Virus record (IMG/VR): IMGVR_UViG_3300048016_000077
Span: 1-40,471 of that record
Length of the DNA: 40,471 bases
Source of the DNA: a virus
Strand: one strand, 5' to 3'
Below are positions 2,004 through 16,332 of the stretch, in pieces (positions within the stretch are counted from its first letter, which is position 1; each line of letters opens with the position of its first letter). Both the position numbers and the translations under genes were made by a program. The notes below the pieces were generated by a model. That model saw only the letters and a list, made by a program, of their open reading frames with translations, did no database searches and was not told the origin of the DNA.

Positions 2004-2035
2004 AGCATTATTTAATGATTTATCTAAATATTACC
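2004..2035. promoter_or_regulatory. Divergent late-type promoter pair
   Basis: The 32 bp between two divergent start codons hold ATTAAATA on the minus strand, 5 nt before the ATG at 2003, and CTAAATA on the plus strand, 5 nt before the ATG at 2036. Both resemble the T4 late promoter core TATAAATA. No Shine-Dalgarno sequence fits in this space. Confidence 0.6.
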
Positions 2036-3526
2036 ATGATAACATTCTCCAAATTCTTTCAAGAAAGCGTAAATTATCAATTAGATGATTTTTCCGACAA
2101 ATGGGAACAGGCGTTGACATCATCAGAAGAATTGCGTGTTGGATTAGACCTAATGAATAAAATAGTTGATCTTTTTCCAACAGGAGAGATTTATATTGTG
2201 GGAGGAGTCCCAAGGGATTTGCTTATGGGAAATTCTATTGATGATGTTGATATGGCTACAAATATTCCATTTGAAGATCTATCAAAACATTTTGAATTGA
2301 GAAATATAAGTAAAAACGATACACAGCCCGTGTATACAATTCTATATGGAGATTATGCATTCGATCTTGCCAAGTTTAGGGAAGATTCCCAAACCGCAAT
2401 GGGAAGACAGAGCAATGTATCAACCGAAGTGGACAGTTTTGAAACCGATACCAAAAGAAGGGATATAACGATCAACAGTTTTGGATTGGATCATAGTGGA
2501 AGGATCGTTGATTACCAAGGGGGATTACAAGATCTACAGAATGGGCTAATCCGAGCCGTAGGAGACGCTAGGGAGCGTTTCAAGGAAGATGCCACTAGAT
2601 TACTCCGTGTGTTCCGTTTCGCCGCTAAAATGGATTTTGATATCGAACCAGAAACTCTAAATGCTGCTAAGGAATTAAAACATTTGTTATTAAATCCCAA
2701 TTTGATATCTCAAGAAAGCATTTCACAAGAAATGTATAAAGCTGCTAAGTCCGGTAGAACGTTATCCAACTTTTTATATAAATTACAAGATGCTGGAATT
2801 TTACATGACATACTTCCAGAATTTACAGATATGGAAGGATTTGATCATGATCCTGCACATCACCCGGAAGGTGATTCCCAAGTTCTAGGACATATTCATG
2901 AATGTCTAAAAGCTTCACCATATAGTGACCCCGTTATCAATTTAGCGGTAATGTTTCATGATTTTGGAAAAGCAACCACAAGAGGAACTAAACCAAACGG
3001 GTTTAGTAATTATCATGCTCATGAAGCAGCAGGAGTTCCCATCGTTGAAAATATTTTCAAGAGATTGCGTTTTGCCAAGTTGGGTCCAGATGATAAAAAA
3101 AATATACTAGCTGCGGTTGCAAATCATATGTATATACATGGACTTGATAAGTTAAGTCTTAAAGTTTTGAGACGTATTATACACAATCCCGCTTGGGAAA
3201 CTATTAAAGCTGTAGGATATTGTGATGAAGCTTCCCGTGGTCCCGGTTTGTTTAATAAACAAGCGTTCTTAGATAAGATTGAGAGAGCAGAAGCTAAACT
3301 GGCTACCGTTCCCGGTGGAGCAGATGAATTGAAAAAACAAATATCCGTAGTTATTAATGGTAATAAAATGATGCAATGGTTTCCACAGTTTCAAACCGAT
3401 AGAACCCAAATAGGAAAGTATCTTCCTAAGATACAGGATTGGGTGGCAGAAATGCTATTGAATAGCAAGGAAGTCACGGAACAAATGGCATATAAGAAAG
3501 CTAAACAGATGGTTCCTAAATCATAA
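2036..3526 (+). CDS. cca: CCA-adding tRNA nucleotidyltransferase with HD domain
   Basis: 496 aa. Class II (bacterial-type) nucleotidyltransferase: VGGVPRD at residues 55-61 binds nucleotide, DDVD at 69-72 supplies catalytic acidic residues, then RRDITINSF and a RFKEDATRLLRVFRF helix. An HD metal-binding domain follows (HIHEC, then FHDFGK), as in bacterial CCA enzymes of the HD subgroup. It would add or repair the CCA end of tRNAs, fitting the array downstream where most tRNAs lack encoded CCA. An ATG at 2015 is in frame, but the late-type CTAAATA sits between the two and points to 2036. Tails with the DUF4326 gene (6-bp convergent overlap). Confidence 0.93.
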   Translation: MITFSKFFQESVNYQLDDFSDKWEQALTSSEELRVGLDLMNKIVDLFPTGEIYIVGGVPRDLLMGNSIDDVDMATNIPFEDLSKHFELRNISKNDTQPVYTILYGDYAFDLAKFREDSQTAMGRQSNVSTEVDSFETDTKRRDITINSFGLDHSGRIVDYQGGLQDLQNGLIRAVGDARERFKEDATRLLRVFRFAAKMDFDIEPETLNAAKELKHLLLNPNLISQESISQEMYKAAKSGRTLSNFLYKLQDAGILHDILPEFTDMEGFDHDPAHHPEGDSQVLGHIHECLKASPYSDPVINLAVMFHDFGKATTRGTKPNGFSNYHAHEAAGVPIVENIFKRLRFAKLGPDDKKNILAAVANHMYIHGLDKLSLKVLRRIIHNPAWETIKAVGYCDEASRGPGLFNKQAFLDKIERAEAKLATVPGGADELKKQISVVINGNKMMQWFPQFQTDRTQIGKYLPKIQDWVAEMLLNSKEVTEQMAYKKAKQMVPKS

Positions 3527-9766: not shown

Positions 9767-9787
9767 AATTTTATATTAGTTTTCTGA

Positions 9788-9857
9788 GTTCCGTGAGGAA
9801 ATCGAATCCCCCTTAAGTGATTTGCAATCACTCACATAACCAATCTGTCAACGGAAC
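9788..9857 (-). tRNA. tRNA-Cys(GCA)
   Basis: Acceptor GTTCCGT pairs with ACGGAAC; anticodon stem AGTGA/TCACT with loop TTGCAAA; T-loop TTCGATT. Discriminator U73 is the known Cys determinant. No encoded CCA. Confidence 0.93.
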
Positions 9858-9861
9858 ATTG

Positions 9862-10097
9862 TGAGATTAAAAAGTGTGCTGTTACGCCAAATACTTGAGG
9901 CTTAGGAACCTACTTGTCGCCACTATCCTATGTTCTCTAGTGGTTGGGCTTGATGACCCTACGACGACTCTTGTTTATCCACAGGCACATCATCAGTATG
10001 TTCTGTTACCGAACTGGCTGACATATCGCACCATCATGGCAATGCCGTAACTCTTTAAATGATGGCTGCTTCTAAGCCGACATCCTTAATAATCTCA
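9862..10097 (-). ncRNA. RNA containing a 23S rRNA GTPase-centre (L11-binding) mimic
   Basis: An 8-bp helix (TGAGATTA at the 5' end, TAATCTCA at the 3' end) encloses the RNA. From 10087 to 10051 the minus strand reads GGATGTCGGCTTAGAAGCAG and goes on CCATCATTTAAAGAG, nearly identical to E. coli 23S rRNA ~1056-1090, i.e. helix 43 and the start of helix 44. At 9888-9874 GGCGTAACAGCACAC matches the following helix 44 loop (~1092-1106). About 160 nt of other structured sequence separates the two halves. It is packed between tRNA-Cys and tRNA-Trp with 3-4 nt to spare, so it is probably processed from the same precursor. Confidence 0.72.
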
Positions 10098-10100
10098 TGC

Positions 10101-10185
10101 ACCAAGAGTAGGATTCGAACCCACAGTGGAACTTTCGTTCGGCGGATTTGGAATCCGCTCGCTTCAACCATTCACGCATCTTGGT
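10101..10185 (-). tRNA. tRNA-Trp(CCA) with long variable arm
   Basis: Acceptor ACCAAGA/TCTTGGT with A1-U72 and G73, both Trp determinants. Anticodon stem GCGGA/TCCGC, loop TTCCAAA. The variable region is 17 nt with a GAAC-GAAA-GTTC hairpin, and the D-arm looks like a class II (Ser) D-arm. Normal tRNA-Trp has 4-5 nt here. Confidence 0.85.
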
Positions 10186-13462: not shown

Positions 13463-13536
13463 CCGCGAGGCAGAAATCGAATCTGCGTATATGGAGTCAC
13501 AATCCATGTCTTTTGTCCAATTAAAGATACTCTCGG
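13463..13536 (-). tRNA. tRNA-His(GTG)
   Basis: Anticodon stem ATGGA/TCCAT with loop TTGTGAC; D-arm TCTT/AAGA; T-arm GCAGA TTCGATT TCTGC; accept-or strands CCGAGAG/CTCGCGG with one mismatch. The usual G-1:C73 of His tRNAs is not evident. Confidence 0.87.
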
Positions 13537-14816: not shown

Positions 14817-15356
14817 TTACTTAATAGTCCAGAATACCTTTTCTGAATCTTTATTTGAAAATATAAATTTATTAGAGGTTTCTACAGTTTTAAATGCTTT
14901 TGATTCCATATCAACATATTTTTTACCAGTTCCCGGTTTTAAATATGCCACTGTTAAGTGTGGTTTATAGTCTGGATAATCATTAGTATAATCTAATAAC
15001 TTAGTAACTTGTTTATTAAGTTTACGTAAATCTTTTGATTTAACTGAACATTTCAATACATCGTAATTATCGTTTTCAAATAACGATAATTTCTCCAATT
15101 GATATTCTACTGAGGTTAATTCTAGAACATCTTTAACAACATCAGGGTCTTGTTCATGTATACCATACAAAACAGTGATATGTGGTTCTTTTTCTAAGCC
15201 ATATCCTTCTTCATCATAAATATCTTCTTTCTCAATATGAGACTGAATATTTTTCAATTCAGTTTCAAAATTCGAACAATCCAACATTAAACATGAATAA
15301 GATCTAGGTTTTGAATTTTCAAAGACTAGATCAAAATAATCTTTAAAGTTTATCAT
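14817..15356 (-). CDS. 2H phosphoesterase (2'-5' RNA ligase-like)
   Basis: 179 aa. Two HxT motifs in the right spacing, EPHITVLYG (His59, Thr61) and KPHLTVAYL (His133, Thr135), define the 2H phosphoesterase superfamily, which acts on 2'-5' or cyclic phosphate bonds of RNA. In phage some members remove host cyclic nucleotide or oligoadenylate signals; others act in RNA repair. The setting in a tRNA array makes tRNA end repair an attractive but unproven role. TTAAATA 5 nt before the ATG at 15356 fixes the start. Confidence 0.85.
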   Translation of the reverse strand: MINFKDYFDLVFENSKPRSYSCLMLDCSNFETELKNIQSHIEKEDIYDEEGYGLEKEPHITVLYGIHEQDPDVVKDVLELTSVEYQLEKLSLFENDNYDVLKCSVKSKDLRKLNKQVTKLLDYTNDYPDYKPHLTVAYLKPGTGKKYVDMESKAFKTVETSNKFIFSNKDSEKVFWTIK

Positions 15357-15389
15357 GTGATTATTTAATATATATAATGGACTTTTCAA

Positions 15390-15843: not shown

Positions 15844-16170
15844 TCATCTATTGTCTCCACTTCCACTAATTTTATTACGTTCTTTTCTACTGGCAAGTTT
15901 ATCCAAGTTCATCTGAGCCATTTCCTCAAGAGTATACCCTAAGTCTCTAGCCAATGCTGCCAAATACCAAAGAACGTCACCACTCTCAAAAATTATTTGT
16001 TTTTTAATTTCATCAGTAAAAACTCCATTATTATCTCTTAGAACTTTCTTAACTTTATCTGCTACTTCTCCTGCTTCACCGCTAAGTCCAAGTGTTGGAT
16101 ATACGATTGCGTGACCTGAACCGTAGATTGAGGTTTCAATTGCTTTGTTTTGGTATTCGTTTATTTGCAT
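15844..16170 (-). CDS. MazG-like nucleotide pyrophosphohydrolase
   Basis: 108 aa. GLSGEAGEVADKV (28-40) and FESGDVLWYLAALARDLGYT (61-80) give the ExxE and ExxD metal-binding pairs of the all-alpha MazG/NTP-PPase fold. It hydrolyses nucleoside triphosphates to monophosphates; phage MazG proteins are thought to adjust dNTP pools or alarmone levels. ATG at 16170 (MQINEYQNKA) gives the usual length; an upstream ATG would start within tRNA-like sequence. It sits alone in the tRNA array. Confidence 0.87.
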   Translation of the reverse strand: MQINEYQNKAIETSIYGSGHAIVYPTLGLSGEAGEVADKVKKVLRDNNGVFTDEIKKQIIFESGDVLWYLAALARDLGYTLEEMAQMNLDKLASRKERNKISGSGDNR

Positions 16171-16183
16171 AATTTTAAATTTA

Positions 16184-16255
16184 TGGTGCGGCCAAAGGCA
16201 ATCGAAACCTTTATGATTCACTTTACGGGCAAATCATAATCCCATCGTTAACGCG
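16184..16255 (-). pseudogene. Degenerate tRNA-like sequence with CCA
   Basis: AAGGT TTCGATT GCCTT resembles a T-arm, followed 7 nt later by A and an encoded CCA. The middle can form TATGATT/AATCATA, too long for a normal anticodon arm, and the expected acceptor 5' strand does not pair. Probably a decayed tRNA. Confidence 0.4.
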
Positions 16256-16262
16256 CATATGT

Positions 16263-16332
16263 AGGAATAGACAAAATCGAATTGTCGTTCTCGCCTTATG
16301 AAAGCGTTGTCTTACCATTAGACGATATTCCA
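16263..16332 (-). tRNA. tRNA with anticodon CAT (elongator Met or Ile2)
   Basis: Acceptor TGGAATA/TATTCCT (1-72 unpaired), D-arm GTCT/AGAC, anticodon loop TTCATAA, T-arm GACAA TTCGATT TTGTC. Normal variable loop. CAT could be Met or, if lysidinylated, Ile(AUA); no other Ile tRNA was found here. Confidence 0.85.

Follow-up and report, generated by a model that had tools for sequence, protein, structure and literature searches.

The factor-binding site of the ribosome contains two rRNA elements, the GTPase-associated centre (GAC) and the sarcin-ricin loop (SRL). In bacterial 23S rRNA the GAC comprises nt 1051-1108 (within Rfam family RF02541); an isolated 58-nt GAC RNA is bound by protein uL11 in vitro, RelA activation requires uL11 and, on the ribosome, A1067 touches the tRNA elbow. 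A non-rRNA RNA that copies a protein-binding site of rRNA is familiar from the L10(L12)4 leader (Rfam L10_leader), which acts in cis ahead of ribosomal protein genes, but to our knowledge no viral RNA has been described that imitates one of the functional centres of rRNA. Amongst phage-encoded RNAs, the nearest in habit to the one considered here are GOLLD and ROOL, structured RNAs of phages and prophages that are of unknown function and often lie near tRNA islands. Both are large and ornate, and ribosomes have been reported to bind GOLLD in pull-downs (PMC12286853). The T4 RNAs rnaC and rnaD (species 1 and 2) are likewise stable RNAs from within a phage tRNA cluster.

The RNA with which this analysis began is encoded by IMG/VR virus record IMGVR_UViG_3300048016_000077, of which the whole stretch analysed (40,471 nt) is called the window below. 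The record has head, portal and tail-completion genes, which mark it as a fragment of a T4-like myovirus, and it contains no rRNA gene. The relevant features are as follows.

9862-10097, minus strand: whole RNA (GAC mimic plus insert), its ends set by the closing helix; the same layout recurs in 220 copies
10085-10097, minus strand: 5′ arm of the closing helix, H42-like, equivalent to E. coli 1043-1055; pairs with 9862-9874
10050-10086, minus strand: 5′ GAC module, equivalent to E. coli 23S 1054-1090; H43 with loop UUAGAAGCA, A1067 at 10073, then AAAGAGU
9888-10049, minus strand: insert of 162 nt at 1090/1091, terminating in the conserved UUUG linker (9891-9888)
9985-10031, minus strand: insert element common to other copies, GUGCGAUAUGUC (10031-10020) ... 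UGAUGUGC (9992-9985)
9872-9887, minus strand: 3′ GAC module, equivalent to E. coli 23S 1091-1106; H44 hairpin GCGUAACAGC, A1095 at 9883, then ACACUU, with U1101A
9862-9874, minus strand: 3′ arm of the closing helix; pairs with 10085-10097
10099-10185, minus strand: tRNA-Trp (CCA), ending 1 nt upstream of the GAC-mimic RNA
9786-9857, minus strand: tRNA-Cys (GCA), beginning 4 nt downstream of the GAC-mimic RNA

Read directly, the minus strand is AGGAUGUCGGCUUAGAAGCAGCCAUCAUUUAAAGAGU at 10086-10050 and GCGUAACAGCACACUU at 9887-9872. Set against the real E. coli rrlB sequence of a genome record, the first of these differs from 1054-1090 only by U1061C, A1089G and A1090U (the last two being normal in many bacterial 23S rRNAs), and the second differs from 1091-1106 by U1097C, U1101A and one change in the closing helix. 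Jointly the two modules rebuild nt 1054-1106 of E. coli 23S rRNA, that is, the GAC; the H44 hairpin lies intact within the 3′ piece, the insert having been plugged in between 1090 and 1091. An earlier, sequence-only reading had noted matches to the H43/H44 core and to the adjacent H44 loop, enclosed by a closing helix and tightly spaced between tRNA genes, all of which proved real (its core match began one base too far out, at 10087); the closing helix pairs 10097-10090 with 9869-9862 and 10087-10085 with 9874-9872.

It is useful to state how this RNA stands relative to those already described. It resembles the 23S GAC in the sequence of H43/H44 and the H42 base, in fold and in the nucleotides of the tertiary core, but differs in being free-standing, outside any rRNA gene, and in having the insert, the UUUG linker, the change of U1101 to A, and relaxed positions 1067, 1068, 1070 and 1096. 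When the Rfam bacterial LSU model is applied, as had been proposed as a check, it finds the 5′ piece with a score of 21.5 bits, short of the gathering score of 50 (E=1.6e-4 for a search of 600 bases), so that the RNA falls outside RF02541 in a record that has no 23S rRNA. Beyond this, an Rfam scan of the RNA stretch gave no other families save tRNAs and weak noise, and neither ARAGORN nor Rfam places a tRNA, tmRNA or group I intron over 9862-10097. Neither the window nor any of the 17 loci searched matches the Rfam covariance models for GOLLD and ROOL; in contrast to those RNAs, the GAC mimic is smaller (approximately 100-700 nt) and is built on an rRNA domain. T4 rnaC and rnaD were considered as relatives and rejected, as direct reading shows that neither holds the GAC module. 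Unlike the L10 leader, the mimic copies H43/H44, has no Rfam match and is not followed by a ribosomal protein gene: in the window tRNA-Cys lies directly downstream, and the neighbours in named phages are likewise free of such genes.

A 16-nt pattern drawn from the 5′ module finds at least 120 viral contigs and, chance hits within protein-coding sequence aside, most of its matches consist of GGGANGUUGGCUUAGAAGCAGCCAUCNUUUAAAGAGUG followed by non-rRNA sequence. Nearly all of the non-coding matches also carry the 3′ module and the closing helix, and because the family retains these a chance match is ruled out. The consensus of the 3′ module, YYUUUGGCGUAAYAGCACACC, is the H44 hairpin with U1101 changed to A and occurs downstream of almost all 5′ pieces, while scans for the 3′ piece alone added copies whose 5′ pieces had diverged. 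Both modules and the closing helix were identified in 220 distinct copies overall, nearly all in phage contigs, with a distance from 1062 to 1091 of 55-656 nt (median 180); the covariation, insert-clustering and tRNA-context figures given below refer to the first 160 of these. A scan for the CACACT form gave 98 matches, and since this form makes up only about 14% of copies it is likely that several hundred IMG/VR contigs carry a GAC mimic.

Copies are also present in complete genomes of cultured phages, namely Aeromonas phage 4_4572, Pseudomonas phages pf16, UNO-G1W1 and Astolliot, Erwinia phage SNUABM_12, Serratia phage BF, Xanthomonas phage XacN1, Cronobacter phage GAP32 and Pectobacterium phage CBB, and in none of these records is any RNA annotated at the site (in UNO-G1W1, at PP551948.2 70501-70608, a probably spurious hypothetical protein, XAI98144.1, is annotated antisense to it). 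Of the copies in bacterial assemblies, those of the two isolates tested (L210 and L221) adjoin tail-fibre, RNA-ligase or other phage genes. Amongst some 120 sampled bacterial genomes, short GAC-only matches occurred solely in those already known through the mimic, and the plasmids scanned held no copy with a 3′ module. Rfam 15 has no family for this RNA, and nothing on phage GAC mimics appeared in the open-access papers searched, a scope that makes the absence weak evidence. Judged from sequence, GAC-mimic RNAs are a real and widespread class of phage non-coding RNA, encoded by many large phages and frequently within tRNA clusters, and apparently an undescribed one.

To assess covariation, one representative was taken from each insert cluster, giving 76 usable rows for 20 GAC pairs. 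Standard pairs fill 91.9% of the cells, as against 69.8 ± 0.8% after shuffling, and this falls to 31-51% if the partners are slid by 1-3 positions; cells with a double change number 371, against 133 ± 11 when shuffled. Across the family the H42 pairs include all four Watson-Crick types, and the H43 pair 1058-1080 occurs as U-A, G-C, A-U and C-G. Of the tertiary pairs, U1060-A1088 is kept in 105/105 copies, while 1082-1086, which is invariably U-A in the 23 distinct bacterial 23S GACs that served as a yardstick, is formed in 95/105 as U-A, C-G or A-U. The helices H42, H43 and H44 and the tertiary pairs of the 23S GAC fold are present in the family, and the helices, together with the 1082-1086 pair, covary strongly. 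The sequence-only reading had proposed a phage-encoded GAC mimic, to be given up if related phages lacked it; it is in fact conserved and covarying in many other phages.

These results also dispose of the most prosaic explanation, that the RNA is a relic of an rRNA fragment once acquired by a phage, or simply contaminating rRNA in an assembly. The 37-nt match to 23S rRNA is nearly exact, and some short phage records do hold true 23S contamination, but the idea is refuted by the family-wide covariation and sits equally badly with the insert site (occupied by non-rRNA sequence), the UUUG linker and the U1101A change shared across 220 copies, and with the presence of copies in complete genomes of cultured phages; the probability left to it is negligible.

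For the conservation of individual nucleotides, bias from the search patterns was avoided by reading each module only in copies that the other module alone had selected (n=112 for the 5′ module, n=78 for the 3′ module). G1059, U1060, C1072 and A1077 are each present in 112/112, and G1093, U1094, A1098 and A1103 in 78/78. By comparison, A1067 is found in 94/112, G1068 and A1070 each in 93/112 and A1096 in 62/78, all four being invariant in the 23S yardstick, while A1095 is kept in 75/78. The 60 copies that were found later show largely the same picture. Selection thus appears to act on the GAC fold more than on the surface contacted by factors and, with the interior kept and the outward face partly freer, the pattern suits a partner that reads the fold, such as uL11, more than it suits exact mimicry of the factor or antibiotic contacts.

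The relaxation of A1067, G1068, A1070 and A1096 relative to 23S rRNA is correspondingly awkward for the suggestion that the GAC surface, sometimes joined by an SRL surface, docks translational GTPases, or RelA with deacylated tRNA, directly, so as to sequester or recruit them, with uL11 being secondary. What speaks for it, apart from the retention of A1095, is that the GAC mimics of one subfamily hold an SRL lookalike. Allowing one mismatch, 6 of the 160 inserts first collected contain AGUACGAGAGGA, where dinucleotide shuffling predicts 0.05, and the lookalike AGUACGARAGGA, enclosed by a stem whose pairs covary (UUACAU/AUGUAA, CCUCGC/GCGAGG, CCCGCA/UGCGGG and others), is present in L045, L088, L170, L178, L189, L232 and L350, and more weakly in L144, in inserts of 340-475 nt; L216 and L374 are without the full SRL motif or stem. 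When the SRL pattern was scanned for by itself four contigs were found, of which two are GAC-mimic RNAs, including that of L232, which every GAC pattern had missed and in which both GAC modules are present but diverged, the 5′ motif strongly so. Set against this, the lookalike is found in only about 4% of copies (7-8), and in several of these the SRL strand could pair instead with upstream CGUACUANG (UAGUACG with CGUACUA), so that on balance we regard direct docking of factors as rather unlikely.

The inserts themselves are extraordinarily diverse. Those of the first 160 copies fall into about 90 mutually unalignable clusters on one shared GAC base, so that the earlier proposal of a phage-specific domain of about 160 nt was right for the window (162 nt) but understated the variety in the family. 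What is constant is the manner of attachment: a covarying stem follows AAAGAGU, and the chain returns via UUUG to the intact GCGUAAYAGC hairpin. In the 78 copies chosen by the 5′ module only, the UUU(G) linker is conserved at 94-99% and U1101A is found in 76, creating a U1090-A1101 pair at the foot of the insert. In some copies a further, smaller hairpin interrupts 1077/1078, and at L015:3690-3790 there is a GAC mimic with no insert at all and a long closing helix, adjoining a tRNA-like stretch; L061 and L163 each carry two GAC-mimic RNAs with differing inserts. Some insert sequence is shared more widely, as with GUGCGAAAUG...UGAUGUGC, present within 2 mismatches each in 26 copies, and with the 3′ part of the window insert, ACAAGUAGGUUCCNAAGCCUCAA, which recurs in L060. 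An element ACCCCGNAANNGGUAAGG lying ahead of the 3′ module is common to a cluster of 37 copies (including L204, L109, L206, L207, L210 and L226) linked to Pseudomonas, Aeromonas, Clostridia and Bdellovibrio records. Apart from the SRL, a search of the inserts for other pieces of rRNA came to nothing, 11-mer matches to E. coli 16S, 23S and 5S rRNA being at about chance level.

Extreme diversity of inserts, together with a phage-linked distribution, is what might be expected of an arms race, and it could be imagined that the RNA is a counter-defence bait for some host defence factor or modifying enzyme aimed at the GAC of 23S rRNA. We know of no phage-defence nuclease or modifier that targets the GAC, and in the one case compared the mimic is not tuned to its host: the Clostridiaceae genome that holds L210 has A1062-U1076 and C1066 in its own 23S rRNA, and the mimic differs from this variant. 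A role as bait is thus improbable, and the same departure from the host variant led us to reject capture of the host's own rRNA.

Turning to genomic context, ARAGORN finds a tRNA no more than 300 nt away for 85/160 copies, as compared with 28% for random points in the same loci, and in 85/85 the tRNA is on the same strand as the copy; about half of the copies have no detected tRNA close by. Where no tRNA lies downstream, a run of six Ts occurs within 60 nt of the 3′ end in 16/99 copies against a background of 2.75%, as expected for an independent 3′ end, whereas for the window RNA the gaps of 1 nt and 4 nt to the flanking tRNAs make release by tRNA-processing enzymes plausible. Such proximity, always on the same strand, could suggest instead that the GAC loop acts as a dock for the elbows of phage tRNAs, holding them and aiding their processing, protection or delivery. 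Many copies are without a detected nearby tRNA, as in Erwinia phage SNUABM_12 and XacN1, A1067 is not strictly kept, and other RNAs are also present in phage tRNA islands, all of which make a helper of this kind doubtful. A further idea, that loss of L11 might aid read-through of UAG, was rejected, as tRNAs whose anticodon is CUA number only 9 in the loci and translation table 11 gives a normal reading of the window.

Various other genes and RNAs were seen in these regions. The window encodes a phage tRNA nucleotidyltransferase (phrog_2244; 2015-3526, plus strand), which fits its large tRNA array, and, within the array, a 2′-5′ RNA ligase / Acb1-like protein (14817-15389, minus strand); Rfam tRNA matches at 13464-13535 and 16262-16332 (both minus strand) are absent from the ARAGORN list. 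A 2′-5′ RNA ligase also lies directly upstream of the GAC mimic in XacN1, and a polynucleotide kinase-RNA ligase protein near that of L221. Group I introns occur at L144:2941-3164 and L112:1354-1608, a marginal twister ribozyme in L090 and tmRNA genes in several loci. The link once drawn to MazG is weak, its gene (15844-16221) lying 5.7 kb from the GAC-mimic RNA and MazG not recurring beside the mimic in those regions of named phages that were inspected.

Returning to uL11, binding of this protein is suggested because isolated GAC RNA binds it in vitro, and we consider it about an even chance that the GAC platform is kept for a protein that reads the fold as uL11 does, the RNA acting in trans as a decoy or scaffold and the insert adding a lineage-specific function. 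The phage RNAs keep the complete GAC fold, made up of H43, H44 and the foot of H42, as an unvarying platform for a large and fast-changing insert at 1090/1091; in this scheme the platform would be retained through binding by a conserved GAC-fold-reading protein, most likely uL11. In tRNA arrays the RNA would be co-transcribed with the tRNAs and freed by their processing, and would then act away from the ribosome, taking up uL11 and perhaps its stalk or factor partners, so that uL11-dependent events such as RelA activation may be blunted, or the use of factors retuned, during infection. The insert would supply a second function particular to the lineage, and in the one subfamily a copy of the SRL would complete a binding surface for translational GTPases. 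An insert of 80-600 nt would be superfluous in a plain sponge for uL11, which counts against the simplest form of this scheme. A more elaborate form, to be held only tentatively, is that tailed phages from a wide range of bacterial groups encode modular RNAs that rebuild the factor-binding site away from the ribosome (the GAC always, the SRL in some) in order to capture uL11 and, by way of it, translational GTPases or RelA, a swappable insert adding an activity particular to the lineage.

Predicted folding of the window RNA is less accommodating to uL11 binding. In the secondary structure prediction that the sequence-only reading had proposed, H43 is absent from the unconstrained minimum-energy fold, in which CCAUCA pairs with UGAUGG of the insert, and constraining the fold to that of the GAC is 11 kcal/mol worse by nearest-neighbour rules; this preferred rival hairpin counts against the uL11-binding reading. 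In unconstrained folds of the first 160 copies, the upper stem of H43 forms in 92 and H42 in 144.

As for wider significance, these results suggest that phages commonly produce, away from the ribosome, a copy of an important component of the translation apparatus. The GAC-mimic family may account for some of what is left unannotated in phage tRNA islands and, being common, phage-linked and present in cultured phages where it can be tested, it offers a direct handle on how phages may act on translation factors or the stringent response.
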